64,000 bases of DNA from Megamerina dolium (Eukaryota > Arthropoda > Insecta > Diptera > Megamerinidae). The translations under genes were made by a program, and so were the position numbers. Under the pieces are notes generated by a model, which did not search any database, was not told the origin of the DNA, and saw only the letters and a list, made by a program, of their open reading frames with translations. Each line of letters opens with the position of its first letter. Position 1 is the stretch's first letter. Below are positions 2,349 through 64,000 of the stretch, in pieces. The DNA lies in assembly GCA_963854835.1 (NCBI GenBank), contig OY978525.1, positions 53,751,448-53,815,447 of the forward strand. The letters are read 5' to 3'.

Positions 2349-3144
2349 TAAAGGGTTTTTCATTAGGGACATAACAATTTCGTATCTTTATATGCAACTT
2401 TAAGAGCGAAAAATCATCTTCAGCGATGAAGCTCATTTCCTGCTCAATGGCTTTGTCAATAAGCAAAATATGCGTTATTGGTCAGCAACAAACCCACAAG
2501 AGCTTCTTGAGACACCGTTGCACCCGCAAAAAGTTACTGTTTGGTGCGGTTTTCATGCCGGAGATGTGATTGGACCGTATTTTTTCGTGGATGAAAACGA
2601 CCGTCATATTACCGTCAATGGAGAGCGCTATCGTGCTTTGTTGGAAGATTATTTGTGGCCAGAACTGGATGAACTTGACATCAGCGATATGTGGTTTCAA
2701 CAAGACGGTGCCACTAGCCACACAGCACACGTCACAATCGATTTATGGCAAGGCAAATTCGGTGAACGTGTTATCTCGAGAAATGGTTCGGTCGAATGGC
2801 CGCCTCGTTCATTCGATATAACACGATTGGATTTCTTTTTATGGGGCTTTATCAAATCACTGGTCTATGCCAACAATCCAGCAACTTTAGACAAGCTCAA
2901 AGACAACATCCAACGCGAAATTGCCAACGTTCCGGTCGAAATGTGTGCTAGAGTGGTGAAAAATTGGGTCCAAAGAATCGACCACTGTAAACGGACTCGT
3001 GGTGGTCATATGAGAGAAATCGAATTTCATTCATAAAATGTAATGCTTGCAATATATCCACAATAAATTTGAACTCAATATCTCAAATATTTCTGTGTTA
3101 TATTAACAGATAAAATTGTTATGTCCGTAATGGAAAACTCTTTA
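2349..3144 (+). mobile_element. Miniature DD41D (rosa-type) mariner with matching TIRs
   Basis: The terminal inverted repeats are 2349-2380 and 3113-3144: 32 bp, with three mismatches by eye. They share TTTT.CATTA.GGACATAA and start with TA, the expected target duplication. The element is about 796 bp and its N-terminal coding half is missing. Both ends being intact suggests it could have been mobilised in trans after the deletion. Confidence 0.85.
2404..3036 (+). pseudogene. DD41D mariner transposase, catalytic domain only
   Basis: The frame is open from about 2404 to the TAA at 3036 but has no N-terminal DNA-binding domain. The catalytic triad is visible: IFSDEAHF (first Asp), WFQQDGATSHT (second Asp) and SFDITRLDFFLWGF (third Asp). 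Counting between the second and third Asp gives 41 residues, so this is DD41D rather than DD34D. The C-terminus ends RTRGGHMREIEFHS. Starting at Met 2470 would lose the first Asp, so that Met is not a genuine start. The copy could not encode an active enzyme without the missing half. Confidence 0.85.
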
Positions 3145-3779
3145 TTTAACATTATTTTTCTACTTTTTACTTCTAACTCCCATTAAAGCGTTTTTTTTTT
3201 TGTTTTTTAAACTCTTTTATTTAAATTTTATTTATATTTAAGTGTATTGTGCTGGTCACTAATAAATTAAAATATTAATTCATATTGTGAGGACCGCGAA
3301 TTATTTTTATTATACTATTTATTTGTCGATATATTTGACGTACTTTTTTTAATTTTCATTTTAAATGAAGTTTAATCTGGATGTAACATACATATGTTAT
3401 ATGATATGGCGTTTTGCTGTTTATGTTATGTTTATAAGTTGATCAATGTGATATTATGGGTTTTTGTTATTTGGGTTATAGTGAACGATTCTCTTACCTT
3501 TGGGTGGTTCATTCAACATCTCGATAGACCAATGTTTGGGTGTGATGTGGACTGTATAGTAAATAAAGATATGTATTTGGGTCGTTTTTTTTTTATAAAT
3601 TATATTAATATATTTCCAATAAGTTAATTTGCTGACCGCAACGGTGTTTTCTTCTGGATTGGGTTAGTATTAGACTCTACCCATTGCCGCCATTCAGTGG
3701 TAGTCTCGAGGACTATCCATAATTTATCACTTATTATTATAGCACGACAACGGAATTTCATTATATAAATATACAAAAT
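3145..3779. other. AT-rich spacer, no recognisable gene
   Basis: Low-complexity AT-rich sequence with T-runs. The short frame at 3394-3627 has no recognisable motif, and I see no element ends. Confidence 0.5.
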
Positions 3780-12479: not shown

Positions 12480-14395
12480 CACATTCTAACATTTTCGAAT
12501 ACCTAGGTTAAACCAACTGCTCATTATTCTGAGATATTCTCTAATGATTACCAAGTATACATAAAGAACCTTTTACTCAAACTTGAAGGCGGCGTTCAGA
12601 AGTAATTCAGTTAAATAACGCTGAAAATTTTGAATTTATATGTGTACGTGTTCAATTTGGTTGCAACTTTTTTATATAAATTGCTCCTACATTCCGCCAC
12701 AAGCTGAATTAAACATTTATTTTCAGCATGCCGGTGTACTAGAATCTCTATACTCTAGAATACTTCCTGCAGATTCATTGTTAGTTTTAGCGGATTTTAA
12801 TCTAGCATATACATTTCTTGAAATGTTATTGGTAACACTATTACCTCGCTATTTTCCTCGCTATCTTTTTTATATAAATTGCTCCTACATTCCGCCACAA
12901 GCTGAATTAAACATTTATTTTCAGCATGCCGGTGTACTAGAATCTCTATACTCTAGAATACTTCCTGCAGATTCATTGTTAGTTTTAGCGGAATTCTATG
13001 AATTCCACAATAATTACCGCAATACAATTCTATTTAAAATAAACGAACTAGGAATTTCCTATATTTATTTGATAAAACCAATTATTCGAAACTGATGCAT
13101 ATTTTATCTGTCACAGTCTGGCCACAATTGTGGAAAGATTCTTATATTATACCTATTCACAAAAGTGGAAGTCGTTCTTCTATTGACAATTACAAAGACA
13201 TTGCCAAACTAAGTGCTATTCCTAAAATGTTTGAGGCGTTAATAATATAACAAATAATCCAATCCGTAAGCTCAATTATCTCATTGTCCCAACACGGGTT
13301 TCGGAAAGGCAAGTTTACTCTAACCAAACTCTTAGAGTTTTCTTCACGTGTAATAAACGACTTCACTTTAAATTGTCAAACTAATGTCATTATACTGACA
13401 TTTGACAAAGTAAACAAAAAAAGTTAGACATAATTACCTTCCCGCCAATTTTGCTAAGTTGAATTAAATCTTACTTAGAAAAAAGGAAACAAAAAGTGTT
13501 ATTTAATAATACATTTTCGAAATATATTGGTGTCATTTCTAGGGTTCCAAGACTTCTTGGACCTATACTTTTTTTACTCTTCATTAATGATTTGCCTACA
13601 GTGATAAGACTTTCTGAAATTTTAATGTATGCCGATGATGTGAAGCTTTTCACGTCACACAGATCAGTAGTTGAGCAGGTTCATCTTCAATATGACCTCG
13701 ACAATTTGGTCAAATGATGAAATATAAATTGCATGAGTGTTAGCATAAAAAATTGTAAATTTATGTGTGTTTTCAAGAAAAATCTCTACTTTCTGTCACA
13801 TATAAAATTCAAGATCACACCCTAGAGCAAGCCCTAATATTTACTGACTTAGGGGTTACCACGGATACAAAATTACGCTTTAATTTTCATATTAATATCT
13901 GTGTAAATAAGGCTAAGGGGGTTTTAGCCTTCATTAAAATATGGTTTAACGAATTTAATGATCCATATATTACAAAGACTTTTCACCACATTGGTTCGAC
14001 CAATACTGTAATATGCATCTGCTATTTGGAATCCACTCTATCAATTGTATAAATATAATCTGAAATCAGTTGCAAAAACAATTCCTACTGGTTGCTTTGA
14101 GGAACCTTCGAAAAGTCGGCGATTAATTCGAGTAATGCTAACTGTCACATTAATAGTTAAACATTTAATTGGAGATATATATATATAGCCCTTACTTTCT
14201 TAATGAATTAAGTTTTAATATACCGTCAAGAGTACCACGCTACTATGTACCTATTAAGATCGTTACTTGTAAAACGAATTATGCACAACATGATCCGTTT
14301 CGCTGTTTATGTTACGATAATTCCTACTATTACATCTTTGATATATCCTCTCCACTTATTGAATACTCTTAATTAATTTTATTTTTTGAATATAT
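12480..14395 (+). mobile_element. JOCK-4: Jockey-clade LINE with a duplicated endonuclease segment
   Basis: Plus-strand pieces are the endonuclease (FYINCSYIPPQAELNIYFQH, LPADSLLVLADFN) and RT (WPQLWKDSYIIPIHKSGSRS, SQHGFRKGKFTLTKLLEF, PRLLGPILFLLFINDLPTVI, MYADDVKLFTSHRS, LYFLSHIKFKITP, TDLGVTTDTKLRFNFHI). Next come thumb and tail blocks FNEFNDPYITKTF, FLNELSFNIPSRVPRYY and TNYAQHDPFRCLCYDNSYYY near 14190-14340. The YADD box is intact. Stops and frameshifts are frequent, and the N-terminal RT fingers are shortened. Confidence 0.82.
12667..12992 (+). repeat. 128-bp exact direct duplication inside JOCK-4 endonuclease
   Basis: Bases 12667-12794 and 12865-12992 appear identical by eye, offset by 198 bp with a 70-bp unique spacer. 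198 is divisible by three, so the frame at 12640-13095 reads through both copies and repeats FYINCSYIPP and SLLVLA. Identity is high against a decayed background, which implies the duplication is younger than most of the element's decay. Confidence 0.9.
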
Positions 14396-30958: not shown

Positions 30959-32416
30959 ATGAGTGTAAAGCGCTCTCCACCCCCCACGCGTAATTCGCCT
31001 TCAACTAATGTTATGGAGATTAAAACAAGTGTAGACGCAACTCATGTAAATAAAAACAATGCTAAAGAACTAAATAGAAATATACTTCTAATCTCGCCTT
31101 TACCAACAAATAATTTGATCAGTGCACACTCCAACACAACACAGACCAACGGTACTTCTCTCTCGTGGAGCGAACAATGTCCCTCTCCTAATCTTATTGA
31201 GGGACCAACAACAGCTTCGAATAGCAACTCCGAAACTCATGTTTATAATCAAACAAGCAGCAACATTGTTGATATCACATTGAATGCAAATAAGTCAGAA
31301 ACAACAAAAGTACAAACAGGTATGGACAGATTCATTACAATTAAAAGGAAATTAAGCCCACAGAAATTGAATGATGGTAATAAGGCAAAAATAAATAAAA
31401 CTAAAATAAATGAAGATGGAAGTGCTTCAATAGGAAATAATGCCAAACCGCCTCCAATTTACTTGCATGAATGCAGTACCAATGAATTAGTAGACAATCT
31501 AACGCGCATAGCTGGCCAAAATAACTTCCATATCGTGTCGCTAACGAAAGGAAATATTAAAGAGACAAAAATACAAATATATAATGAAGACAATTACCGC
31601 GCCATTGCCAAATTTCTCAATGAAAACAACAAAAACTTTTACACATATCAGCTCAAAAGTTCCAAAGGTCTTATTGTTTTCGTCAAAGGTATAGATCCGA
31701 ATGTAGAATCAAATGATATAAAGAAAGCACTGGAAGAAAAAGGCTTTCCGATAAAAACAGTTGTAAATATGGTCAATAAAAATAAGGTCCCACAGCCAAT
31801 GTTTAAAGTTGAATTGATTCCCGAATTCAAAAAACTAAAAAAGAATGAAACACATCCTATTTACCAAATGCAATACTCGCTTCACCGTAAAATTACAGTG
31901 GAAGAACCACATAAGCGTAAAGGTCCTGTACAATGCACAAATTGTCAGGAATTCGGCCATACTAAGAGCTATTGCGCCTTAAGAAGCGTATGTGTAGCAT
32001 GTGGAGATCTCCATCAGACATCAGCATGTACTTCTAACAAAAACGACCAAATACTAAGAAATTGCAATGGTAACCATACAGCAAACTATAGAGGCTGTCC
32101 TGTATATAAGGAATTAAAAAACAGGTCTAATCAGAGTCAAGCAACTCACTCCCAAGTGGCTACAAAATTTCAAAGTGATGTTACACAAACCAACGCAAAT
32201 ATTTCAATAATTTCTCATATATCGTACGCCAATGTATTAAAACAAACTGAGCAACATGCAAAAGAACCAATTGCCCAGCCCAATGGAACCGTTGAATCTA
32301 TGATTTGCAATTTAACCCAATGCACGACACAATTTATGTCTAATATGCAAACTATGATTCAAGAACTGATTAAAGCGCAAAATCAAATGTTACAAGCTCT
32401 ATTAAATAAAAAATGA
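30959..32416 (+). CDS. JOCK-2 ORF1, gag-like nucleic-acid-binding protein (485 aa)
   Basis: An uninterrupted frame from Met 30959 to TGA 32416, unusual in this decayed window. A low-complexity Thr/Asn/Lys-rich N-terminus precedes an RNA-binding-like domain (LVDNLTRIAGQNNFHIVSLT, LIVFVKGIDPNVESNDIKKA, MFKVELIPEFKKLKKNET). Next are zinc knuckles: CTNCQEFGHTKSYC (CxxCx4Hx4C), CVACGDLHQTSAC, and a decayed third with RNCNGNHTANYRGC. The C-terminus is Gln/Asn-rich. In Jockey elements this protein coats the RNA and guides the particle. The third knuckle's N in place of C (RNCNGNH) is the only obvious defect. ORF2 begins in the last four bases. Confidence 0.87.
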   Translation: MSVKRSPPPTRNSPSTNVMEIKTSVDATHVNKNNAKELNRNILLISPLPTNNLISAHSNTTQTNGTSLSWSEQCPSPNLIEGPTTASNSNSETHVYNQTSSNIVDITLNANKSETTKVQTGMDRFITIKRKLSPQKLNDGNKAKINKTKINEDGSASIGNNAKPPPIYLHECSTNELVDNLTRIAGQNNFHIVSLTKGNIKETKIQIYNEDNYRAIAKFLNENNKNFYTYQLKSSKGLIVFVKGIDPNVESNDIKKALEEKGFPIKTVVNMVNKNKVPQPMFKVELIPEFKKLKKNETHPIYQMQYSLHRKITVEEPHKRKGPVQCTNCQEFGHTKSYCALRSVCVACGDLHQTSACTSNKNDQILRNCNGNHTANYRGCPVYKELKNRSNQSQATHSQVATKFQSDVTQTNANISIISHISYANVLKQTEQHAKEPIAQPNGTVESMICNLTQCTTQFMSNMQTMIQELIKAQNQMLQALLNKK

Positions 32417-39320: not shown

Positions 39321-39357
39321 TGAAAAGGCTTTATACTACACAAACTAAAAATAAAAT

Positions 39358-39714
39358 AAATAAATATGTGGCACTTAAAGCCCCAAAGGGCTCATTGGCC
39401 GAGCTTCTCTTCCATTACTGTTGTGCGTCTTAAATTTGGACAGTATTAGAAGGGACCTACTTATTTTAGCCGGTTCCGAACGGCAGGACACTTGTGACAT
39501 CACTTTTTCTAAGCTTTGTCACAGAGTTCTTTTAGAAGCTTTTTCATGGCAACTTGTTACTGTCGGAAGAATTGCCAATTGCTTGCCGACAGGTGGGTAC
39601 CATTCGAAAGAAAAATCTTATCGATATTATTTGTTATGCATCAGCCGGGGATTGAACTACGATCTACAGATCAGAAGGCGAACACACTAACCACTGAGCT
39701 ACGGCACCACAAAC
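39358..39714 (-). mobile_element. tRNA-derived SINE, full-length copy (SINE-a)
   Basis: Read on the minus strand from 39712: a head with A box TAGCTCAGTGG and B box near AGTTCAATCCC, followed by GGCTGATGCATAACAAAT, a body (CGAATGGTACCCACCTGTCG, CGTTCGGAACCGGC, TAAGTAGGTCCCTTCTAATA, GGAAGAGAAGCTCGGCCAAT) and the tail TGCCACATATTTATTTATTT. The pol III internal promoter architecture and about 350-bp length fit a tRNA-derived SINE. The tRNA cloverleaf cannot close, so it is not a tRNA gene. Confidence 0.85.
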
Positions 39715-45199: not shown

Positions 45200-46990
45200 A
45201 TGCTAGGATGACCAATTAGGCGCTGTATTGCCTCTACTTAGAGCAAAATTTAGGGTGTCTAAGTGTGAAAGTTAACAATTCTCAAGAACTGGACAACGAG
45301 GTCAGAAAACTTGAAAAAACAATAACTGAGGCTTTCGAAAACAGCTGCGACTTGGTGCTGAAAAAACGTTCTAGGAATCTCCATTGGTGGAGCGAGGAAC
45401 TTAACAAGTTGCGCAAGAAAGCACGTCAACTTTTCAATAGAGCCAAGTCCAATGGTGACTGGGTATCCTATAAATGTACCTTAACGGCTTACAATAACAA
45501 TTTGAGAGAATCTAAGAGAGATTCATGGAAAAGGTTCTGCGAGGAGATCGAGGAGTTCCCAGTAGCTACCAGACTCCAGAAATCGCTCAAAAAAGATTAC
45601 TCAGTTGGCCTTTCTACATTTAAAAAGGCAGACGGAAATTATACGGGTAGTCTGAAAGAAACGGGACAGTTACTGCTAAACACTCACTTTCCAGGATGTG
45701 CCACCTGTGATGAGGACAGTGAAAGCATCGAAAATATCAGTTTTTTGATGGCTACACGCAAGCCACTATCACTGGCTCATAAAATTTTTACCGTCAATAA
45801 AACTAAATGGGCAATCTCCACATTCAATCCATTTAAATCTCCGGGAGTTGATGATATTAATTAAACCTTGCCTTCTCCGGCAAGGGGCTAATGTATTAGC
45901 ACCAATTCTTACAAAAATGTTCAGGATAAGCATGGAATTAGGTGCAGTACCTAAATCATGGACAAAAGCTAGGGTCGCTTTCATCCCGAAAGCAGGGAAA
46001 AAGGCGGATCACACGCCCAAATCCTTTCGGCCCTTATGCCTAACATCATTCCTGCTAAAAGCAATGGAAAAAATTTTAGATCAGTACATCAGAGAAGTTT
46101 ATCTTAAGGATACACCATTCTATACTGAACAATATGCTTAATAGTCAGGCAAGTCGACTGAGACTGCAATACATTGCGTAACGAGTAAAATCGAACAGGC
46201 ATTAGAAGGTAAAGAAATAGCTCTTTGTACATCGGTTGACATTACTGGAGCTTTTGATAATATTACTTTCAGGTCTATTGAGGAAGGTATGGTCATGGGT
46301 TCTTAATATGATGAAAAACAGGCCATTAATTTACGAAATGGGTACAGAAAAAAAAATTGCCAAGTCAACCAAGGGTTGTGCTCAAGGATGTGTTTTATCG
46401 CCGCTCCTATGGTTATTGGTCATTGAAGAGCTTTTACAAACTGTCGATGATCTCGGATACGAAGTTCAGGGCTTTGCAGATGACTTAATATTTATGGTTA
46501 TAGGCAAATTTGACTCTACCATAACTGAGCGCATGCAACTAGCTCTTGACATCACACAAGACTGATGTCAAGAGAAAGAACTTTCGATAAACCCTAGCAA
46601 AACGACACTGGTACCCTTCACGAAGAGGAGGAAGTTGAATTTAGGGATCCTGAAGTTAGGTGAAACAGAACTAACGCTCTCTGAGGAGATGAAATATTTG
46701 GGAGTAATCCTGGATAAAACTCTTACTTGGAACAACCATTTATCATACATCACGAACAAAGCCCTAAGGGCTACCTTCGCTTGCAAAAGCTGTATGGTAA
46801 AACATGGGGACTACGACCTAAAATGTTGGAGTGGTCATACAAAACTATAATAGTACCAATGCAAGAGACCCATAGGTGATCACCTATGCGTCTCTGGCAT
46901 GGTGGCCGAAGGTAAATCAAATTGGGGCTCAGATGATCCTTAACAGGATTCATCGAATAGCCTGTTTGAGCGTAACGGGGCGATGAGAAC
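45200..46990 (+). pseudogene. LOA-1 reverse transcriptase
   Basis: Linker: NLHWWSEELNKLRKKARQLF and STFNPFKSPGVDDIN. RT: SWTKARVAFIPKAGKKADHT, KSFRPLCLTSFLLKAMEKIL, ALCTSVDITGAFDNI (near 46215-46265), STKGCAQGCVLSPLLWLLVI, YEVQGFADDLIFMVIGKFDS (FADD intact), SINPSKTTLVPFTKRRKLN and LSEEMKYLGVILDKTLTWNN. Frames change at 45848, 46140 and 46236-46300. TGA at 46563-46565 replaces the expected Trp. A 42-bp near-palindrome at 46859-46900 disrupts PIVTYASLAWW. Confidence 0.83.
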
Positions 46991-47264
46991 TAGATCCACA
47001 GCAGCTTTAAGAATAATCACAGGTCTCAATCCTCTACACCTTGTGGTTAAAAGGACAGCAGCCAGTGCAGACATAAGGCTTCCGAACTCTATTCACCTGA
47101 AAGAAGGTAACCTAAAAGGGCACGTTAATATTCTAGACGTAGCCTGGAATTCCCCGGGCCTCATGGTCTTTGACAGGATGGGTAAAAACTTATATTCTCC
47201 AAACTCTTCGAAGTGATCATTCACGATGCTCAGCGTGGAGAAACAACGAAATATTTCTAGAACA

Positions 47265-48017
47265 GGGCTCAGCTACAGCTATGGTACACTGATGGATCCA
47301 AAATGGAAGATGGCAGTGCTGGAGCGGGAATTGTATTGGCAAATTTCCGGAAGGCAATTGCAATGAGAAAAATAGCTTCCATTTTTCAGGCGGAAGTCCA
47401 CGCCTTAGAGCTATCTCTTAGAGAATGTCTCAGAGGGGCATTCGAGGAACCAACATATGCATTCTATCTGACAGTCAGGCAGCTCTAAAATCACTAATAA
47501 ATTTCTCGTTTCAATCTATGTTGGTCTGGGAATGCTTCGAACTCCTGAATACCTTAGCAAAGAGGAACTCTGTGACTCTAATATGGGTACCGGGACACGA
47601 GGGGCATGCAGGAAATGAAATGGCAGATTTACTGGCCAAAAAGGGCGCCGACACTCCTTTCACAGGATCAGAACCCTTCTGCGGGGTAGACAGTAGCTTG
47701 ATGAACAACTTAATCTGTGATAAGGAAAAAATTAGTCTAACTGGAAAGCCCAAACAGACATGCGGCAGTCGAAAAGATTCATTGACCCTGAACATATTAA
47801 GGTAGATACTATCTTGAACATCAAGCTGTACACTGAACTACTAACAGGTCATTGTAAACTTAATTATCACATGATGAAAATGGGTGTGGTAAACAACGAT
47901 CTCTGTCGATTCTGTATTGAAGAGCAGGAAACAGCAGAATACGTTCTTTGCAATTGCCCAGCTGTCCAGACTAAACTACCTAGGCAACGGATTCATAGTT
48001 TCCAGGGACTTAGTTAA
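47265..48017 (+). pseudogene. LOA-1 RNase H and C-terminal Cys/His region
   Basis: LWYTDGSKMEDGSAGAGIVL (first acidic motif), SIFQAEVHALELSLRECL (Glu motif), then in the next frame ILSDSQAALKSLINFSFQSM and VTLIWVPGHEGHAGNEMADL (His/Asp motif) complete the RNase H fold with one frameshift near 47440. After another shift at 47760, VNNDLCRFCIEEQETAEYVL and CNCPAV form the terminal Cys/His finger. RNase H would remove the RNA template strand in an active element. Confidence 0.82.
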
Positions 48018-48161
48018 AATCAATCCCACAGCAGTGACAATATTTATAAATAGTCTTGAGATCTGTTAGTTAGGGAACAAGGCTGCACAAAAGATCTTCA
48101 GGTCGCGGTGCTTCATAGCCTTAATAATAATAATAAAAAAAATTTTTATATATATATACTC

Positions 48162-48300
<139 letters not shown>

Positions 48301-51155
48301 TGCATCAAAAGAAATAGTTCACAGCTTTAACAACACAAAAATGCTTGAAAACATTTCATGTGTTTCATGTATGTTAAGCAAAATATGCACCGTTCAACAC
48401 AAAATTAATCGGTGAAGCACGTTATTTTCTGATATTAGTGAATGATAATTCGCGAAAAATATATGATTATTTTATGGAAAATAAAGACTATGTGTTCCAA
48501 AATTTTAGGACTTTTAAGAATCTTGTCGAGCGACAAACCGGTCGAAAAATAAAAATTATTGGAAGCCAGATTTTCCGAGAGTACGTAAGCAACGCGTTTG
48601 ATAATTACCTAAAAGAACAAGGCATTTAGCGTCAGCTAACTGTTCCAAACTCGCCACAGCAAAACAGTATGGCAGAACGCGCAAATAGCACGCTCGTTGA
48701 AATGGCGCAATGCATGCTAGTGCACGCTGGATTATGCGACAAATTTTGGGCAGAAGCCATCGCCACAGCAGTTTATTTGCGAAATCGTGTAAGAACTAAA
48801 GCCCTTGACGGTGTAACTCCAAATGAAATTTAGTACCAGCGCAAACCATGCGAAAGCTCAGCTTAGAGTGTTTGGCTGTTTAACTATAGTGTTAGATAAA
48901 ACGTAAAATCACAAGTTCCGACCTAATGGTAGAGGATGTCGACTTGACATAAAGATGGCGGCAGTAGTTTGAAAAAAATTACTTTGGTGAAAAGTTGCAA
49001 CCTTTTGAAACTTATGTTTTAAGTTTCAACGCGCCACGTTGTTTAGTATTTTTTTTTTTTGTAAACATGGAAAAAAGTGGTCTCCGTTATGTAATTCAAT
49101 ACTTTAATTTGAAAGATCTCAGTCCAACGAATAGTAAAGCCAATCTAGATTCTACTCTGGGGGAGTCTGCTCCTTCGTTTACTACCATAAAATATTGGGT
49201 GGCGAAGACAGTCCCATCTGCTGGCAAGGTTATGGCGTCTGTTTTTTGGGATGCACGTGGGATAATTTTTATTATCTTCAAAAGGGAAAAACAATCAATG
49301 GCGAGTATTATGCTTATTTGTTGCAGCGTTTAAGTGAATAAATTAAAGATAAAAGGCGACGTTTGGCGAAAAAGAAAGTGTTGTTTCATCAAGACAATGC
49401 ACCAGTTCACACATCGGCTATTTGATGGCCAAAATCAATAAGTTAAAGCTCGAATTGCTTCAGCACGCACCTTATTCGCCAAGTTTAGCTCCTTCGGATT
49501 ATTTTCTATTTCCAACGGAATCAACGGAGAAAACCAACACACCATGCGTGTTAGTGTCAATTTAAAGTAACGAGCCAAATAAAGTTTCCCGGCGAAGGCC
49601 GAAAATAATAAAACCGGGTAAACGAGGCAGACCGACTAAGCAGTACAACTATGTTAATATGCTAAATAGCAACAACCATGGTGTGAATCTATAAAAAATT
49701 AGTGATTAGATTAGTGACAGCAAACACTTCTCTGAGTGGATGGGAGCCGTCAATACTCATCGTTGATTGGGAACAACACATGGACAATGGCCGATTTACC
49801 ATTAGACCATATATCTATCGGTTGTAAATGAAAGTTTTCAACCAAAAACGATAAAGAACGAAACATCGAACGGTTCAAGACGAGGCTAGTGGCCAAGGGA
49901 TGTACCCAAAAATATGGTATAAACTACTCCGAGATGTTCTCTCCAGTGATCAGGTACGCTACAATACGCATGCTATTGGCGTTAGCAACATCGCACAAGT
50001 TGCACCTACACCAACTAGATGTCACGACGGCATATCTCAACGGTGACTAAAGTGAAGCTTGCTACATGAAGCAGTCGGAAGGATTTGTAAGCGAAGCACA
50101 CCCAAATAGAGTCTTGGGGCTGAATAAAGCAATCTATGGATTGAAGCAATCCGGACGAGAGTGGAACTCGAAACTGGATATTGTTCTACAGAGCGTGGGT
50201 TTTATACCATGTAGTAACGAACCGTGTCTATATAAAAGTACAAAACAGTGCGAATTGTTTTTAAAAGCCGTATATGTTGATGATTTAATTTTAGATAGTA
50301 CTGAAGAAGATTATATAGAAGCGGTCAAACCCAAATTAGCGAACGAGTTTAAAATCGTTTACAAAGGCCTACTATCCTACTTTCTTGGTTGAGAAATAGA
50401 GAGATACAAAAACACTGGCGCTATATCAGTTAGCCAAAAGCAGTACATCAGCACTCTACTGGAAAACTATGGCATGCTCGACTATCGTCCTGTATCCACA
50501 CCTCTCGATCCAAGTTTCCAAATAAAATGTGTTGACGACAACTCCGTAATGCCAGAAAAGGGTGCATATCATACACTGATCGGCGAATTTATGTATTTAG
50601 CTATATCCACAAGACAATTCTGTGAGTAAATTAGGGCAATGTAACACGAACCCGACAACCGAGTACAAGTGCGGTGCCAAACACATTTTGCGGTACTTGT
50701 CGAAAACCATCTACATTAAGCTACATTATATTCCAAACGGTGAAAAACTACATGGCTACGTCTACGGAGATTGGGGTGGCGACACCAAAGGTAGAAAATC
50801 ATACTCAGGCAACGTGTTGATCATGAACGGTGGACCAGTGTCATGGGAATCTAAAAAGCAGAGCACCATAACATGAAGCACAACAGAAGCTAAGTATATT
50901 GCGCTATCCTCCTGGTAAAATTAGCTGTATACTTGAAACGGTTGCTAGAAAAAATTGGCTTCCAAAACTAAAACTCGCCTGTTGTCATACTAGGCGATAA
51001 CTTGAGCACACAACAACTCGTACAATGCGTACTAAACATATAGGCATCAAATACCATCACGTGCGTGCACTTTCTATGTAAAGTTTAAATATATCTGTTC
51101 AATTGCAATGATAGCTGATGTTTTCACAAAAAATTTAGCTAAGAAGAAGCATTGC
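48301..51155 (+). pseudogene. Copia element, left-arm copy (integrase to RNase H)
   Basis: Integrase: YDYFMENKDYVFQNFRTFKN, RKIKIIGSQIFREYVSNAFD (the usual RSDNG is GSQIF, so the catalytic Asp is lost), TVPNSPQQNSMAERANSTLV (Glu) and KFWAEAIATAVYLRNRV. After a mariner insertion: RRRPKIIKPGKRGRPTKQYN. RT: TRLVAKGCTQKYGINYSEMF, LDVTTAYLNGD, LNKAIYGLKQSGREWNSKLD and FLKAVYVDDLILDSTEEDYI (YVDD box intact). RNase H end: KHILRYLSKTIYIKLHYIPN and MIADVFTKNLAKKKHCG. Several stops. The gag and protease are cut off at 48301. Confidence 0.87.
48943..49530 (+). mobile_element. Mariner nested in copia, left-arm copy
   Basis: Met near 49067: MEKSGLRYVIQYFNLKDLSP, LGESAPSFTTIKYWVAK, then the middle is lost and it joins PSAGKVMASVFWDARGIIF, KKKVLFHQDNAPVHTS-like (49370-49420) and KLELLQHAPYSPSLAPSDYF. 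The GDEKW block is deleted. Same lineage as the fragment at 42113. Copia reading resumes after about 49530. An identical copy is in the right arm (57178-57765). Confidence 0.8.
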
Positions 51156-51163
51156 GGGTGGAT

Positions 51164-52080
51164 GGGTGCAGTAGCTCAGTGGTTATTGTGTTGGCCTTCT
51201 GATCTGTACGTCGTGGTTCAATCCCCGGCTGATTTTTTTTTTTTTTTTTAACAAGCTTTTTTATTGGATCTTTCTAAAATTACTTAGAAACTAACAATAT
51301 GTAATCAAATCTTACAAACTAAATAAAATTATGTGATATTCCCAACGTTCCATCACAATTTGTTGAGTCACGTGGTATAGCAATTTCACAGCATATTCAG
51401 TGTGGCTTTTCTTTTTAATCGACGATGCCCCGTACTCAGCAACAATTGCCTAGCAAGGGGATTCGGATGACTGTGTAATTTTTGAATGTAGCTTCTGCAA
51501 GACATTGCAACTTCCTCAGAAATTGTGGGTACATTTAAATCTCGATGAATATTAACGTTCCTCATATACCAAGGCGCGTTTACAATAATTCGCAGACACT
51601 TGGATTGTATTCGCTGCAATTTTTCGATATTTGAGGGAGATGCGATGCCCCAAAACTGAATACCATAAGTCAAGATTGGCTTCAGGATTGCTTTATATAA
51701 TAGCACTTTGTATTCGAGATTCAACTTTGATCTTTTGTGTTTCAGCCACCATAACTGATTAATTTGTTATGCATCCCCGGCTGATGCATAACAAATTTAA
51801 AATCGAAAATATTTTTCTTTCGAACGGTACCCACCTGTTGGCAAGCAATTGGCAATTCTTCTGACAGTAACAACTTGCAATGAAAAAGCTTCTAAATGAA
51901 CTCTGTGACAAAGCTCAGAAAAAGTGATGTCGTATGGGTTCTGCCGTTCGGAACCGGCTAAAATAAGTAGGTCCCTTCTAATACTGTCCAAAATTTAACA
52001 CGTACAACAGTAATGGAAGAGAAGCTCGGCCAATGTAACCTTCGAGTCTTTAAGTGCCACATATTTATTTTATTTATTTA
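51164..52080 (+). mobile_element. SINE-c, split by a JOCK-1 insertion (left arm)
   Basis: The tRNA-like head (TAGCTCAGTGG A box; GGTTCAATCCC B box) begins near 51164, directly after the copia C-terminus. The body resumes at 51773 and runs to the ATTTATTTTATTTATTTA tail at about 52078. The JOCK-1 tail lies between two copies of ATCCCCGGCTGAT (51221-51233 and 51773-51785), a 13-bp target-site duplication. Mirror image at 54632-55547. Confidence 0.88.
51234..51772 (-). mobile_element. JOCK-1 tail, copy B (left arm)
   Basis: Minus-strand LINE end with poly(A) (T-run 51233-51249) and LEYKVLLYKAILKPILTYGI, FWGIASPSNIEKLQRIQSKC, LNVPTISEEVAMSCRSYIQK and RRLKRKATLNML. At its truncated 5' end, a perfect inverted copy of the flanking SINE sequence (AATTTGTTATGCAT, 51761-51774, against 51784-51797) separates element and target. 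Confidence 0.9.
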
Positions 52081-52398
52081 GAAACATTGAAAATCAATTA
52101 AAATTATGGGCTTATATTAGCATTTTTTCTTTTTAATCTTGTAAACGGATATTCGTGTTGAGAGGAAATGTTGAAATAGTACTATTTTACTACTATTTTA
52201 AAATTTCCTCTCTAGTAATTGAATTAGTCATATGCAACCCGAATATCTGGTACTACATTTCTACGATTCACAGTTTATTTCTCTTATTCTACATTTCTTT
52301 TATAGTATATATATATATGATTTGTATATTAGCTTTAAGCCTTCGAATAACAATGATCTACGCGTGTCTTATTCTTGACGGCAATAACTAACAATATA

Positions 52399-54045
52399 CA
52401 GTGGCTCCCAGCTTATTTCGTACAGTGACAGTTTAAAAATTGCTGTAGTCGTAATTCCTAATATAGCAAAAATTTGAACAAAATATAAATGCCATTTTAG
52501 AAAGGAAGGTTTGTTTTTTATTTTCCAAAATTTACTTTTTCAAAATTTTAGTGTTTGACACTATAAAAAAATAAAATAAGAAAAAATAGGAAAATTCATG
52601 TCACAGCTTATTTCGTACAGTCTCTTTAAGTTCAAACTAAAAACAAAGTAAGTTGATTTTAATATTTAGTTGACATCCCTTAGCGTTAATGACAGCCTGG
52701 AGTCTATTTGGCATTGAATCCACCAATTTTTGAGTGATGTCTGGTGTGATTTTTTTCCATTCTTCCATCAGTACCTTCTTTAGGTCTTGCTTATTAGAAA
52801 TCTTGTGTGTTCTTATTTTATTGTCCAAAATAGACCAAAGATTTTCAATCACATTCATGTCAGGTGACTGTGGTGGTGGAGACATCAAGTGTGGGCAGTT
52901 CCAAATAAGCCAAGATTGCACAATCCCAGATTTATGTTTTGGGTCATTATCTTGGTAGTACCGAAATTCTTCCCGCAAACCCAGTTTGTCTGCACTTTGA
53001 AGTAAATTGTTTTTCAGAATCTCGAGGTACTTCATTTTGTCCATTGTTTCCTCAATAAAAACCAATTCACCTACTCCGGCTGCTGACATACAGGCCCAAA
53101 CCATCACGCTACCGCCACCATGCTTCACTGTGGGCTTAAGGTTCTCCTTGTTTAGCTCGGTATTCGCTTTACGCCAAACATATGACATTCCGTCCGAGCC
53201 AAAAATATTAAACTTAGACTCATCCGCGAAAATAACGGTATTCCAGAACGCAGGAGTCTTAATAATATGCTCTTTGGCGAAGTCAAGTCGGCGTTGTATA
53301 TTCATTTTTGAAATGAATGGTTTCTTTCGGGCTACTCTACCGTTCAAGTCATGATTGCGCAGCACACGTCGGACAGTTTCAGCACTGGATGATTTTCCTA
53401 TTTCACGCTGAACCTCTGCAGCCAACTTCGGAGCGGATAACTTTGGATTTTTCTTAATTTTTCGTGCAACATAACGCTCGTCTGAAGCGTTGAAAATCTT
53501 ATTAGGTGCTTCTCTGCCCTTGTTCTCCAACCGATTTTCGCGAACGAAGCGTTGAATGATGTATTGGACAGTTGAGGCACTTAAATTTGTCATTTCAGCA
53601 ATTTTTCGCACACTCTGACCTTTCCTAAAATGGTTAATTACCAGTTTACGCTGTTCCATCGTTGTACGACGACCCATAACGCTAAATGTTTAATTTACAG
53701 CACTTTAACTATTTAAAATAATAATAATAAAAATTGTTATAATAGTTAAAAAGGTCCAAAAACTCATACAATTCAAAAAAACTTTGTAACTGCGCGGCAG
53801 AATGAAACTTACTTACATTGAAGTTTGTGTACGAAATAAGATGTGAGCTGAAAATCAGCTGATCAATAGTTTTTCTCTCTTGCATGACAAAAAGAACAAT
53901 TTTTGGGGTTCCCCGTTTTCTTATTAGGTTTACTAAACACATACATAGACATCTACATTCAAAACTTATTGATAAGTTTTTTAGTTTCGATGTTACAGCC
54001 ATGTACATAAAAATATATACACTGTACGAAATAAGCTGTGAGCCA

Positions 54046-54048
<3 letters not shown>
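52399..54048 (-). mobile_element. Complete Tc1-type transposon with IR/DR ends
   Basis: 1,650 bp, flanked by TA. The TIRs begin CAGTGGCTC.CAGCTTATTT and run to the GTACAGT block. Each end has an outer and an inner copy of CAGCTTATTTCGTACAGT: 52409-52426 and 52604-52621 on the left; 54021-54038 and a diverged copy at 53827-53845 on the right. That is the IR/DR arrangement of several Tc1-like families. It carries an uninterrupted transposase gene. It sits in the TA-repeat spacer of the palindrome. Confidence 0.93.
52637..53677 (-). CDS. Tc1-type transposase, intact (346 aa, DD34E)
   Basis: One open frame from Met 53677. The N-terminal paired-like DNA-binding region has two helix-turn-helices (KGQSVRKIAEMTNLSASTVQ; KNPKLSAPKLAAEVQREI) with a GR-basic linker between them. 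The catalytic domain has all three acids: VIFADESKFNIFGSDG (D), RYYQDNDPKHKSGIVQSWLI (D) and SPDMNVIENLWSILDN (E), with 34 residues between the last two. The Gly-rich box HGGGSVMVWACMSAAGVGEL is present. Length is normal for Tc1 transposases (about 340 aa). It would excise and reinsert the element at TA sites. No defect is visible, making this the best candidate for a potentially active gene product among the transposons here. Confidence 0.94.
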   Translation of the reverse strand: MGRRTTMEQRKLVINHFRKGQSVRKIAEMTNLSASTVQYIIQRFVRENRLENKGREAPNKIFNASDERYVARKIKKNPKLSAPKLAAEVQREIGKSSSAETVRRVLRNHDLNGRVARKKPFISKMNIQRRLDFAKEHIIKTPAFWNTVIFADESKFNIFGSDGMSYVWRKANTELNKENLKPTVKHGGGSVMVWACMSAAGVGELVFIEETMDKMKYLEILKNNLLQSADKLGLREEFRYYQDNDPKHKSGIVQSWLIWNCPHLMSPPPQSPDMNVIENLWSILDNKIRTHKISNKQDLKKVLMEEWKKITPDITQKLVDSMPNRLQAVINAKGCQLNIKINLLCF

Positions 54049-54319
<271 letters not shown>

Positions 54320-54631
54320 AGTTATTGCCGTCAAGAATAAGACACGCGTAGATCATTGTTATTCGAAGGCTTAAAGCTAATATACAAATCATATATATAT
54401 ATACTATAAAAGAAATGTAGAATAAGAGAAATAAACTGTGAATCGTAGAAATGTAGTACCAGATATTCGGGTTGCATATGACTAATTCAATTACTAGAGA
54501 GGAAATTTTAAAATAGTAGTAAAATAGTACTATTTCAACATTTCCTCTCAACACGAATATCCGTTTACAAGATTAAAAAGAAAAAATGCTAATATAAGCC
54601 CATAATTTTAATTGATTTTCAATGTTTCTAA

Positions 54632-55547
54632 ATAAATAAAATAAATATGTGGCACTTAAAGACTCGAAGGTTACATTGGCCGAGCTTCTCTTCCATTACT
54701 GTTGTACGTGTTAAATTTTGGACAGTATTAGAAGGGACCTACTTATTTTAGCCGGTTCCGAACGGCAGAACCCTTACGACATCACTTTTTCTGAGCTTTG
54801 TCACAGAGTTCATTTAGAAGCTTTTTCATTGCAAGTTGTTACTGTCAGAAGAATTGCCAATTGCTTGCCAACAGGTGGGTACCGTTCGAAAGAAAAATAT
54901 TTTCGATTTTAAATTTGTTATGCATCAGCCGGGGATGCATAACAAATTAATCAGTTATGGTGGCTGAAACACAAAAGATCAAAGTTGAATCTCGAATACA
55001 AAGTGCTATTATATAAAGCAATCCTGAAGCCAATCTTGACTTATGGTATTCAGTTTTGGGGCATCGCATCTCCCTCAAATATCGAAAAATTGCAGCGAAT
55101 ACAATCCAAGTGTCTGCGAATTATTGTAAACGCGCCTTGGTATATGAGGAACGTTAATATTCATCGAGATTTAAATGTACCCACAATTTCTGAGGAAGTT
55201 GCAATGTCTTGCAGAAGCTACATTCAAAAATTACACAGTCATCCGAATCCCCTTGCTAGGCAATTGTTGCTGAGTACGGGGCATCGTCGATTAAAAAGAA
55301 AAGCCACACTGAATATGCTGTGAAATTGCTATACCACGTGACTCAACAAATTGTGATGGAACGTTGGGAATATCACATAATTTTATTTAGTTTGTAAGAT
55401 TTGATTACATATTGTTAGTTTCTAAGTAATTTTAGAAAGATCCAATAAAAAAGCTTGTTAAAAAAAAAAAAAAAATCAGCCGGGGATTGAACCACGACGT
55501 ACAGATCAGAAGGCCAACACAATAACCACTGAGCTACTGCACCCATC
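54632..55547 (-). mobile_element. SINE-d, split by JOCK-1 (right arm mirror of SINE-c)
   Basis: The tail is at about 54632 and the body runs to 54936. The tRNA-like head lies at about 55476-55547 (A box at 55530-55540, B box at 55486-55496 on the minus strand). The same 13-bp target duplication flanks the JOCK-1 insertion (54924-54936 and near 55476-55488). Confidence 0.88.
54937..55475 (+). mobile_element. JOCK-1 tail, copy C (right arm)
   Basis: Mirror of copy B. The frame 54985-55323 encodes the same 112-residue C-terminal segment, followed by AATAAA and a 16-A tail (55460-55475). The identical 5' inverted filler is present (ATGCATAACAAATT next to AATTTGTTATGCAT). Confidence 0.9.
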
Positions 55548-55552
55548 CACCC

Positions 55553-58500
55553 GCAATGCTTCTTCTTAGCTAAATTTTTTGTGAAAACATCAGCTATCAT
55601 TGCAATTGAACAGATATATTTAAACTTTACATAGAAAGTGCACGCACGTGATGGTATTTGATGCCTATATGTTTAGTACGCATTGTACGAGTTGTTGTGT
55701 GCTCAAGTTATCGCCTAGTATGACAACAGGCGAGTTTTAGTTTTGGAAGCCAATTTTTTCTAGCAACCGTTTCAAGTATACAGCTAATTTTACCAGGAGG
55801 ATAGCGCAATATACTTAGCTTCTGTTGTGCTTCATGTTATGGTGCTCTGCTTTTTAGATTCCCATGACACTGGTCCACCGTTCATGATCAACACGTTGCC
55901 TGAGTATGATTTTCTACCTTTGGTGTCGCCACCCCAATCTCCGTAGACGTAGCCATGTAGTTTTTCACCGTTTGGAATATAATGTAGCTTAATGTAGATG
56001 GTTTTCGACAAGTACCGCAAAATGTGTTTGGCACCGCACTTGTACTCGGTTGTCGGGTTCGTGTTACATTGCCCTAATTTACTCACAGAATTGTCTTGTG
56101 GATATAGCTAAATACATAAATTCGCCGATCAGTGTATGATATGCACCCTTTTCTGGCATTACGGAGTTGTCGTCAACACATTTTATTTGGAAACTTGGAT
56201 CGAGAGGTGTGGATACAGGACGATAGTCGAGCATGCCATAGTTTTCCAGTAGAGTGCTGATGTACTGCTTTTGGCTAACTGATATAGCGCCAGTGTTTTT
56301 GTATCTCTCTATTTCTCAACCAAGAAAGTAGGATAGTAGGCCTTTGTAAACGATTTTAAACTCGTTCGCTAATTTGGGTTTGACCGCTTCTATATAATCT
56401 TCTTCAGTACTATCTAAAATTAAATCATCAACATATACGGCTTTTAAAAACAATTCGCCCTGTTTTGTACTTTTATATAGACACGGTTCGTTACTACATG
56501 GTATAAAACCCACGCTCTGTAGAACAATATCCAGTTTCGAGTTCCACTCTCGTCCGGATTGCTTCAATCCATAGATTGCTTTATTCAGCCCCAAGACTCT
56601 ATTTGGGTGTGCTTCGCTTACAAATCCTTCCGACTGCTTCATGTAGCAAGCTTCACTTTAGTCACCGTTGAGATATGCCGTCGTGACATCTAGTTGGTGT
56701 AGGTGCAACTTGTGCGATGTTGCTAACGCCAATAGCATGCGTATTGTAGCGTACCTGATCACTGGAGAGAACATCTCGGAGTAGTTTATACCATATTTTT
56801 GGGTACATCCCTTGGCCACTAGCCTCGTCTTGAACCGTTCGATGTTTCGTTCTTTATCGTTTTTGGTTGAAAACTTTCATTTACAACCGATAGATATATG
56901 GTCTAATGGTAAATCGGCCATTGTCCATGTGTTGTTCCCAATCAACGATGAGTATTGACGGCTCCCATCCACTCAGAGAAGTGTTTGCTGTCACTAATCT
57001 AATCACTAATTTTTTATAGATTCACACCATGGTTGTTGCTATTTAGCATATTAACATAGTTGTACTGCTTAGTCGGTCTGCCTCGTTTACCCGGTTTTAT
57101 TATTTTCGGCCTTCGCCGGGAAACTTTATTTGGCTCGTTACTTTAAATTGACACTAACACGCATGGTGTGTTGGTTTTCTCCGTTGATTCCGTTGGAAAT
57201 AGAAAATAATCCGAAGGAGCTAAACCTGGCGAATAAGGTGCGTGCTGAAGCAATTCGAGCTTTAACTTATTGATTTTGGCCATCAAATAGCCGATGTGTG
57301 AACTGGTGCATTGTCTTGATGAAACAACACTTTCTTTTTCGCCAAACGTCGCCTTTTATCTTTAATTTATTCACTTAAACGCTGCAACAAATAAGCATAA
57401 TACTCGCCATTGATTGTTTTTCCCTTTTGAAGATAATAAAAATTATCCCACGTGCATCCCAAAAAACAGACGCCATAACCTTGCCAGCAGATGGGACTGT
57501 CTTCGCCACCCAATATTTTATGGTCGTAAACGAAGGAGCAGACTCCCCCAGAGTAGAATCTAGATTGGCTTTACTATTCGTTGGACTGAGATCTTTCAAA
57601 TTAAAGTATTGAATTACATAACGGAGACCACTTTTTTCCATGTTTACAAAAAAAAAAAATACTAAACAACGTGGCGCGTTGAAACTTAAAACATAAGTTT
57701 CAAAAGGTTGCAACTTTTCACCAAAGTAATTTTTTTCAAACTACTGCCGCCATCTTTATGTCAAGTCGACATCCTCTACCATTAGGTCGGAACTTGTGAT
57801 TTTACGTTTTATCTAACACTATAGTTAAACAGCCAAACACTCTAAGCTGAGCTTTCGCATGGTTTGCGCTGGTACTAAATTTCATTTGGAGTTACACCGT
57901 CAAGGGCTTTAGTTCTTACACGATTTCGCAAATAAACTGCTGTGGCGATGGCTTCTGCCCAAAATTTGTCGCATAATCCAGCGTGCACTAGCATGCATTG
58001 CGCCATTTCAACGAGCGTGCTATTTGCGCGTTCTGCCATACTGTTTTGCTGTGGCGAGTTTGGAACAGTTAGCTGACGCTAAATGCCTTGTTCTTTTAGG
58101 TAATTATCAAACGCGTTGCTTACGTACTCTCGGAAAATCTGGCTTCCAATAATTTTTATTTTTCGACCGGTTTGTCGCTCGACAAGATTCTTAAAAGTCC
58201 TAAAATTTTGGAACACATAGTCTTTATTTTCCATAAAATAATCATATATTTTTCGCGAATTATCATTCACTAATATCAGAAAATAACGTGCTTCACCGAT
58301 TAATTTTGTGTTGAAAGGTGCATATTTTGCTTAACATACATGAAACACATGAAATGTTTTCAAGCATTTTTGTGTTGTTAAAGCTGTGAACTATTTCTTT
58401 TGATGCAAGTTCTGTTAAGCTTTGCAAATGTACAAGCTGTTTTCTTTGACGCACATTCATTTTTAAAATTAACTTTGGCACCATTTTTTACACCCTTACT

Positions 58501-58935
58501 AACAGAGAAGAAATTTACTTGCAAAGAAGGAACATATAAAACATCTTTAAGTATGATTTTACAGTTTTATATTCTAATCTTTAGATCACCTCTTCCTTCA
58601 GCATAGACAAAATGCTCTCCAGCAACAATTTTTCTCTGTTTCTCTTCTTTGAACGTATCAAACATGCCACAATTGCTGAATTTGCATTTTTTATTCTCTG
58701 ATAGTGTCAATGCAGCTGCAGAATAGGAGTGCTCTTTCTCTTTTCTTTTCCCGTCTTTACATTTCTCCGCATAGTGCCCTCATTATCCACAGTTAAAACA
58801 TTTGCCGTTGTTCTTTCTTTCTTTGTTGTTATTGCTCGCACTTGTACTTTTGCTGTACCCTCTAAAATATTTACCGATATCATATTTTCCTCTGTCGCTG
58901 TTGTTAGCGTCACTGCTGCAGTGATGTGCTATATC
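55553..58935 (-). pseudogene. Copia element, right-hand copy (gag end to RNase H)
   Basis: Mirror of the left copy from 58407 inward, with the YVDD box (56430 region) and TKQGELF. It also includes upstream parts lacking on the left: a gag zinc knuckle KCFNCGxxGHYAEKCKDGKR (58800-58740; two stops where xx are), then GEHFVYAEGRGDLKIRI and ILKDVLYVPSLQVNFFSVSK-like pol N-terminal region near 58610-58490, and KNVRQRKQLVHLQSLTELAS leading into integrase. The 5' end stops at a (TA)n tract near 58950, so the 5' LTR is missing. Confidence 0.85.
57178..57765 (-). mobile_element. Mariner nested in copia, right-arm copy
   Basis: Mirror image of 48943-49530, encoding the same 112-residue fragment (57375-57713). 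Its presence in both arms dates the mariner insertion before the inverted duplication. Confidence 0.82.
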
Positions 58936-59003
58936 TTTACGTGGTTCAGTTGTATATATATATATATATATAAATATATATAAATATATATAAATATATA
59001 AAA

Positions 59004-59070
<67 letters not shown>

Positions 59071-59074
<4 letters not shown>

Positions 59075-59138
59075 GGAAGAGAAGCTCGGCCAATGAGCCC
59101 TTTCGGGCTTTATGTGGCCACATATTTATTTTTTTATA
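59071..59138 (+). mobile_element. SINE-e: 3' end fragment only
   Basis: TAATGGAAGAGAAGCTCGGC through GTGGCCACATATTTATTT: the last about 65 bp of the SINE, bounded by TA tracts on both sides. Inverted partner at 59226-59292. Confidence 0.85.
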
Positions 59139-59151
59139 TATTATATATTTT

Positions 59152-59226
<75 letters not shown>

Positions 59227-59237
<11 letters not shown>

Positions 59238-59419
59238 AATATGTGGCCACATAAAGCCCCAAAGGGCTCATTGGCCGAGCTTCTCTTCCATTACTGTTGT
59301 GCGTCTTAAATTTTTGGACAATATTAGAAGGGACCTACTTATTTTAGCCGGTTCCGAACGGCAGAACACCTGTGGCATCGCTTTTTCTGAGCTTTGTCAC
59401 AGAGTTCTTTAAGAAGCTT

Positions 59420-59425
<6 letters not shown>
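59227..59425 (-). mobile_element. SINE-f: 5'-truncated SINE
   Basis: Minus-strand SINE body up to GAAAAAGCTTCTT near 59420, where a TA tract begins; the tRNA-like head is missing. The 3' end has TGGCCACATA, as in SINE-e, while SINE-a and SINE-c/d have GTGCCACATA. These two therefore form a subfamily. Confidence 0.85.
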
Positions 59426-62432: not shown

Positions 62433-62528
62433 CTGGCGCCGGCTAGCGAAGAACAGAGATGTCTGGCGAAGCATGTTATTTTCGGCCTAAATCGATATTC
62501 GGTTGTTATGGCCACATAAATAAAAATA

Positions 62529-64000
<1,472 letters not shown>

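Follow-up and report, generated by a model that had tools for sequence, protein, structure and literature searches.

A near-perfect 4.1-kb palindrome between TA tracts in the Megamerina dolium genome and its probable origin by template switching

Results

The 64,000-nt stretch of the genome of the fly Megamerina dolium analysed here (the window; positions 53,751,448-53,815,447 of contig OY978525.1, below C1, in an assembly of 500.5 Mb and 8 contigs) is rich in transposons and contains a palindrome with arms of about 4.1 kb (Table 1). A self-BLAST of the window aligned the left and right arms as reverse complements over 4098 columns with 99.854% identity, 5 mismatches and 1 gap, as a first-pass annotation of the sequence had described them, and because of this length and identity a palindrome by chance is excluded. 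The annotation had seen about three differences between the arms, which is too low: there are six, namely five substitutions (left/right, 48392/58316, 49183/57525, 49482/57226, 50249/56459 and 51935/54774) and one T in a T-run (51233/55476), and they are scattered along the arm length. After masking of low-complexity sequence, 72 pairs were obtained in the window, of which just one besides the palindrome reaches 96% over 60 bp or more; it is a 128-bp direct repeat, whose copies (12667-12794 and 12865-12992) are 100% identical.

Read from 48301, the arm consists of a copia integrase piece, a mariner fragment, copia reverse transcriptase, a repeat resembling a short interspersed element (SINE) with a nested non-LTR fragment, and a long terminal repeat (LTR). 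The reverse transcriptase (RVT_2, two pieces) and the mariner fragment (Transposase_1 and HTH_48) scored above the Pfam cut-off, and the rve-like integrase piece scored below it. The end of the LTR is supported by three relatives elsewhere in the genome (loci L043, L044 and L048), in which an identical end is followed by TAGGTTATGGGCCCAGTC, which we take to be a copia-type primer-binding site. With RVT_2, an integrase piece and an LTR end beside a primer site, the arms belong to the copia-type LTR retrotransposons. The sequence is broken by stops and nested insertions, and the insertions are identical in kind in both arms.

Table 1 Features of the palindrome and its flanks (window coordinates)
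Feature	Position	Strand	Remarks
Non-LTR element	45265-48146	+	RVT_1 and RNase H pieces, (AAT)n-type 3' tail; left flank; named LOA in the first-pass annotation
Left outer (TA)n tract, then TTGT	48147-48299	.	From Tandem Repeats Finder (TRF); tract itself 48147-48296
Outer junction	48300	.	One extra G between tract-TTGT and arm, or shared TTG then TG slippage
Left arm	48301-52398	+	Apparently copied from the right arm in inverted orientation; holds copia, mariner, SINE-like and non-LTR pieces
Copia-type LTR	52156-52393	+	238 nt as delimited, TG..CA; close to the arm's inner end
Tc1-like transposon	52399-54048	-	TA on both sides, outer and inner inverted repeats, open reading frame
Central (TA)n tract	54049-54315	.	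TTT interrupts it six times, AAA never; grouped with the right arm
Right arm	54311-58407	-	Apparently parental; carries what the left arm carries, on the minus strand, and runs on into upstream copia-type sequence
Upstream copia continuation	58408-58952	-	Pol_BBD-like piece; cut by another (TA)n

The spacer between the arms (52399-54310) had been described as a TA tract plus one transposon, and it is indeed made up of a Tc1-like element and a 267-bp (TA)n tract. The inverted ends of the element (52394-52427 and 54020-54053, including the flanking TA) are 97% complementary, with a 31-nt outer repeat and a 21-nt inner repeat that starts 195 nt further in. Its open reading frame (ORF; 52637-53677, 346 aa, no stop) encodes a transposase with HTH_Tnp_Tc3_2 and DDE_3 above cut-off and a match to the Sleeping Beauty catalytic domain at 8.1e-55; among the matches listed, the best with an organism name is from Drosophila bipectinata (63%), and other relatives reach 81%. 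These inverted ends, the TA duplication and the helix-turn-helix and DDE domains of the predicted transposase place the element in the Tc1/mariner group. All 40 places scored in the genome, the window copy among them, were 99-100% identical (from 1,799 first-look candidates). The family is therefore young and the product of a recent burst, so that a late insertion into the palindrome is natural.

The central tract is not mirrored, having six TTT interruptions and no AAA. A tract that had been tightly folded or overlapped on itself should tend to give both, and the unmirrored tract was therefore assigned to the right arm; the left arm was probably joined near the edge of this tract. Since the spacer is now 1.9 kb long and holds the Tc1-like element, extrusion of a cruciform by the present allele seems unlikely.

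As the annotation had stated, the left arm ends at another (TA)n; it starts right after this outer tract and the letters TTGTG. Over 80 nt, from 48220 to 48299, the tract and TTGT repeat 54239-54318, the inner flank of the right arm, exactly and in direct orientation. In both tracts the nearest TTT interruption is equally placed, with 59 nt of perfect alternation and equal polarity, and the chance of sharing this distance and polarity is ~0.0149 x 1/2 in a test picked after the match was seen. At the outer junction we read either a 1-nt insertion or a shared TTG with TG slippage, and the inner switch falls within (TA)n. Junction microhomology is a common accompaniment of template switching. 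In the left-flank non-LTR element, no TA tract was found within 150 nt of the 3' end in any of 19 other copies (of at least 39 others listed), and the outer tract is thus not simply the tail of that element. An exact-pattern scan for the outer junction in genome_contigs, where the records of the source genome may be left out, gave 0 matches.

The two outer ends of the palindrome differ. The right arm runs on into copia sequence, as had been claimed, and the closest copia relative (L003, which overlaps L049 at C1:80.44 Mb) matches the right arm and its flank in the corresponding order (58929-58678, 58665-58450, 58434-58317 and 58310-57769); the left arm breaks off in the integrase. The Pol_BBD-like piece in the continuation scored 25.0 bits, below the Pfam cut-off of 27. 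The relative at C1:80.44 Mb is a single copy, and in the 1.5 kb examined there its end meets a TA tract, beyond which lies other sequence. Among the six relatives in which the outer LTR end is visible (L041, L042, L045, L046, L047 and L049), two adjoin a TA tract at this end (L045 and, minus its last bases, L049), hinting that this copia family may insert into TA microsatellites.

The genome was searched with the two ends of the arm. For the outer 1,200 nt, matches of ~100% were found only at the two arms (best 40 of 4,000 candidates scored, here and for the parts of this query); the next match to its copia part was 82% over ~550 nt, at two places, and its mariner part matched dozens of places at up to 91%. 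The inner 314 nt matched at 100% at the two arms only, the next match being 72%. As the arm ends have no other close copy, the arms are best explained by duplication in situ.

To orient the substitutions we compared the arms with the fetched loci only, counting the overlapping L003 and L049 as separate rows. At 50249 the base of the right arm was present in 6/6 rows (five loci), and at 51935 in 7/9, the other two having a G and a gap. At both 49183 and 49482 it was present in four of five rows. Proteins agree weakly: at 50249 the Cys of the left arm was seen in 0/9 relatives and the Gly of the right arm in 1/9, and at 49482 Mos1 has Asp, the codon of which we reckon to be one step from that of the right arm and two from that of the left. 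The left arm thus looks derived at the four orientable substitutions, clearly at two and by majority at two; four of four is suggestive and not significant. Together with the continuity of the right arm with the upstream copia sequence in the order of the relative, this makes the right arm look like the parent and the left arm like an inverted copy of it.

The substitution divergence of the arms is 0.122% (Poisson 95% interval, 0.040-0.285%). With a fly mutation rate of 2.8e-9 per site per generation, on which the estimate rests, the divergence corresponds to an age of ~0.2 million generations (0.07-0.5 million), if both arms mutate and neither conversion nor copying errors have contributed.

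Discussion

The most probable origin of the palindrome, to which we give a probability of roughly 0.7, is a replication template switch with two switches, by which a copy of the right arm was inserted in reverse orientation, followed later by the landing of the young Tc1-like element in the centre. Before the event the locus would have consisted of the non-LTR element, a (TA)n tract and a copia-type element in minus orientation, with its LTR end touching the tract. The growing strand, arriving from the left, would have copied the tract and then TTGT from the LTR end (point 1), before jumping to the other strand in the integrase region, ~4.1 kb further on at 58407 (point 2). From here it would have been extended backward along the arm until it entered the TA tract (point 3). 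There, TA pairing would have returned it to the original template at a position upstream in the tract, before point 1 (point 4). The tract and the arm would then have been copied again, and the product would be tract, inverted arm, tract, arm. Because (TA)n is its own reverse complement, it would favour stalling as well as the switch back. The transposon would have entered the central tract afterwards, at a TA close to the tract's left edge. The replication setting, the order of the switches, the role of TA secondary structure and the later date of the Tc1 insertion are the parts that we infer.

The sequence fits this scheme in two respects. Set against the reconstructed ancestral locus, it reads from L to 1, in reverse complement from 2 to 3, and from 4 to R, with junctions at 48299/48301, at 58407 and in the central tract. 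In addition, the direct repeat that arises when point 4 precedes point 1 is present as 80 exact nucleotides, the tracts diverging further upstream. The first-pass annotation had already proposed a template switch initiated in TA repeats that copied the right block in inverted orientation. Its core survives, with a parent-like right arm, (TA)n at both switches and a later Tc1, and gains the 80-nt direct copy, the unmirrored tract, the arm ends without a close copy elsewhere and the substitutions leaning to the left arm.

Similar events have been described. The four-point template-switch model, as outlined in PMC7954356, includes the order in which point 4 lies before point 1 and reports AT-rich surroundings; the same succession L to 1, reverse 2 to 3 and 4 to R, a direct beside an inverted repeat and an AT-rich setting are found here. 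However, the reverse-copied stretch is 4.1 kb at our locus, and the events outlined in that paper are short-range ones in great apes (PMC7954356). A backward-copy model has been proposed in Drosophila subobscura for inverted duplications at the Attacin gene and at the ends of inversion O7 (PMC7584159). As presented there, that case shares with ours a fly genome, a forward template switch with backward copying and an AT-rich palindromic repeat at the breakpoint, but it concerns genes and an inversion, and ours concerns dead transposons (PMC7584159). Unlike the yeast inverted copy-number variants of the origin-dependent inverted-repeat amplification (ODIRA) type, in the form summarised in PMC10766183, the M. 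dolium locus carries an interstitial single inverted copy and no triplication. Human palindromic AT-rich repeats (PATRRs), as characterised in PMC4940405, also have an AT-rich centre inside a palindrome, but the TA centre here is unmirrored and split by a 1.65-kb transposon, and the locus is not known to take part in translocations. To judge from the letters, with these unmirrored interruptions and the Tc1-like element, it would hardly be a near-symmetric, cruciform-prone centre of the PATRR kind. No publication describing this locus was found, by title or abstract opening, among the matches listed.

Several observations weigh against the template-switch origin. The palindrome is known here from assembled sequence alone, and the genome searches covered only the two ends of the arm. 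L006 (C6:3.40 Mb, a 91% mariner copy) agrees with the left arm at 49183 as well as at 49482, and at 48392 neither arm's base was present in the two relatives available. The tracts agree over 80 nt and not beyond, the central tract having five more TTT and the outer tract none, so that common descent requires contraction or slippage of a tract. The microhomology at the outer junction is 3 nt at most. TTGT also follows TA tracts near 62641-62647 and in L049, and was dropped as a signature on its own because it recurs in this way. Finally, with more than 130 TA steps on offer in the tract, it is mildly improbable that the Tc1-like element should sit at its extreme edge, 5 nt away from the left-arm LTR end.

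An assembly or amplification artefact, in which a haplotype was joined to its own reverse complement through a chimeric inverted molecule or through false overlapping in the TA tract, is less likely than real DNA and on the whole unlikely. Palindromic reads are described as pervasive after multiple displacement amplification and as harmful to long-read assembly in the account of PMC13265396. The self-complementary (TA)n makes false overlaps conceivable, and the 0.12% by which the arms differ might be allelic variation. However, the outer junction sits in integrase sequence and not in a repeat overlap, and a false overlap in the tract would tend to yield both kinds of interruption, AAA and TTT, across the halves of the centre, which has only TTT. 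The lean of the substitutions to one arm, the TA-flanked Tc1-like element between the arms and the chromosome scale of the assembly also argue against an artefact.

It is also improbable that the palindrome arose by hairpin fold-back after a double-strand break, in which a resected 3' end in (TA)n primed itself to copy the arm and the hairpin was joined to the left fragment. (TA)n is able to pair with itself, and in yeast, as reported in PMC7467729, single-strand hairpins are an established route to fold-back inversions, whether the loop is small or large. Such a fold-back would account for the inverted copy. Nevertheless, a single break in the tract does not alone yield the second tract and TTGT (80 nt) on the left. 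A tight fold should also mirror the centre, which it does not, though a large misaligned loop could avoid the mirroring.

Gene conversion between the arms of palindromes is well known, and an older palindrome kept alike in this way would be compatible with a single sequence such as ours. Such conversion concerns the upkeep of the arms and is compatible with their origin by template switching, but we consider it quite doubtful here: the differences are spread along the arms and lean to one of them, and no signature tested points to conversion. Two independent insertions of one compound copia element in opposite orientations into one TA tract, a reading which the LTR ends of L045 and L049 beside TA tracts might favour, are scarcely credible and were set aside, as the genome searches largely refute them (no copy of the arm ends closer than 82% for the copia part or 72% for the LTR part) and the left arm lacks the upstream half and ends in the integrase. 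A rearrangement driven by the Tc1 transposase was set aside on reasoning, as it would not account for the copy of the tract and TTGT.

On the template-switch reading, the palindrome is a mutational scar, for which we propose no function; it is a clean case of a known kind of accident in dead transposon DNA rather than a genetic element of a new sort. The inverted duplication is not known to alter any gene. If real, the locus is a usable test case for the generation of inverted duplications by TA microsatellites and for the fidelity of the copied strand, because the probable parent adjoins its copy, the parental flank recurs at the far junction and most mutations can be assigned to an arm by means of the relatives.

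TA tracts are abundant in this genome, (TA)40 having 91,258 overlapping matches on the forward strand. We compared inverted pairs in 21 fetched loci (98,746 bases), which are of unequal length and were not drawn at random. Eight of these are TA-tract neighbourhoods (L009, L034 and L053-L058; the first places listed on C1), and inverted pairs were present in three of them (L054, L056 and L057), those of L054 and L056 being 82-89% alike and partly SINE. None was found in two further tract loci (L045 and L049), with an unfiltered TA-rich pair visible in L045, and one was found in the 11 loci without a 40-bp tract (L052). The link of TA tracts with inverted pairs across the sampled loci is suggestive only. 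That TA tracts recurrently seed inverted copies of up to kilobases by paired switches, the copied arm carrying low-fidelity errors, is a speculative extension that we think unlikely to hold in general; if the switch used low-fidelity synthesis, a lean of all four orientable substitutions to the copied arm would be expected.

Two smaller inverted repeats were noticed. L057 (C1:340400-346400) contains at 3083-3264 a near-perfect TA-centred palindrome with exact arms of ~87 nt, partly TA, an 8-nt spacer and TG/CA runs outward. An inverted repeat at 59071-59293 of the window (~60 bp of SINE tail, with a (TA)n centre and a further TA tract outside the repeat) was considered as a second case and not counted, as it could be a small template switch or equally two SINE tails meeting.

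Other repeats in the window

Copies of the SINE-like repeat of the arm lie at 51165-52080, 39349-39708 and 59222-59425, the first two being 89.9% alike. By eye, the repeat has a tRNA-like head, and its tail resembles that of a reverse-transcriptase element ending near 62523; ARAGORN with bacterial settings called no tRNA. Inside the repeat, in both arms, lies a non-LTR fragment (51222-51785) with the 12-nt ATCCCCGGCTGA on either side, also read by eye. Exact-pattern scans of viral_contigs with the inner end of the arm and with the SINE piece gave 0 matches each. Elsewhere in the window, a PF07530-type ORF at 30959-32416 has its best match with an organism name, among the matches listed, in Bactrocera neohumeralis (60%).

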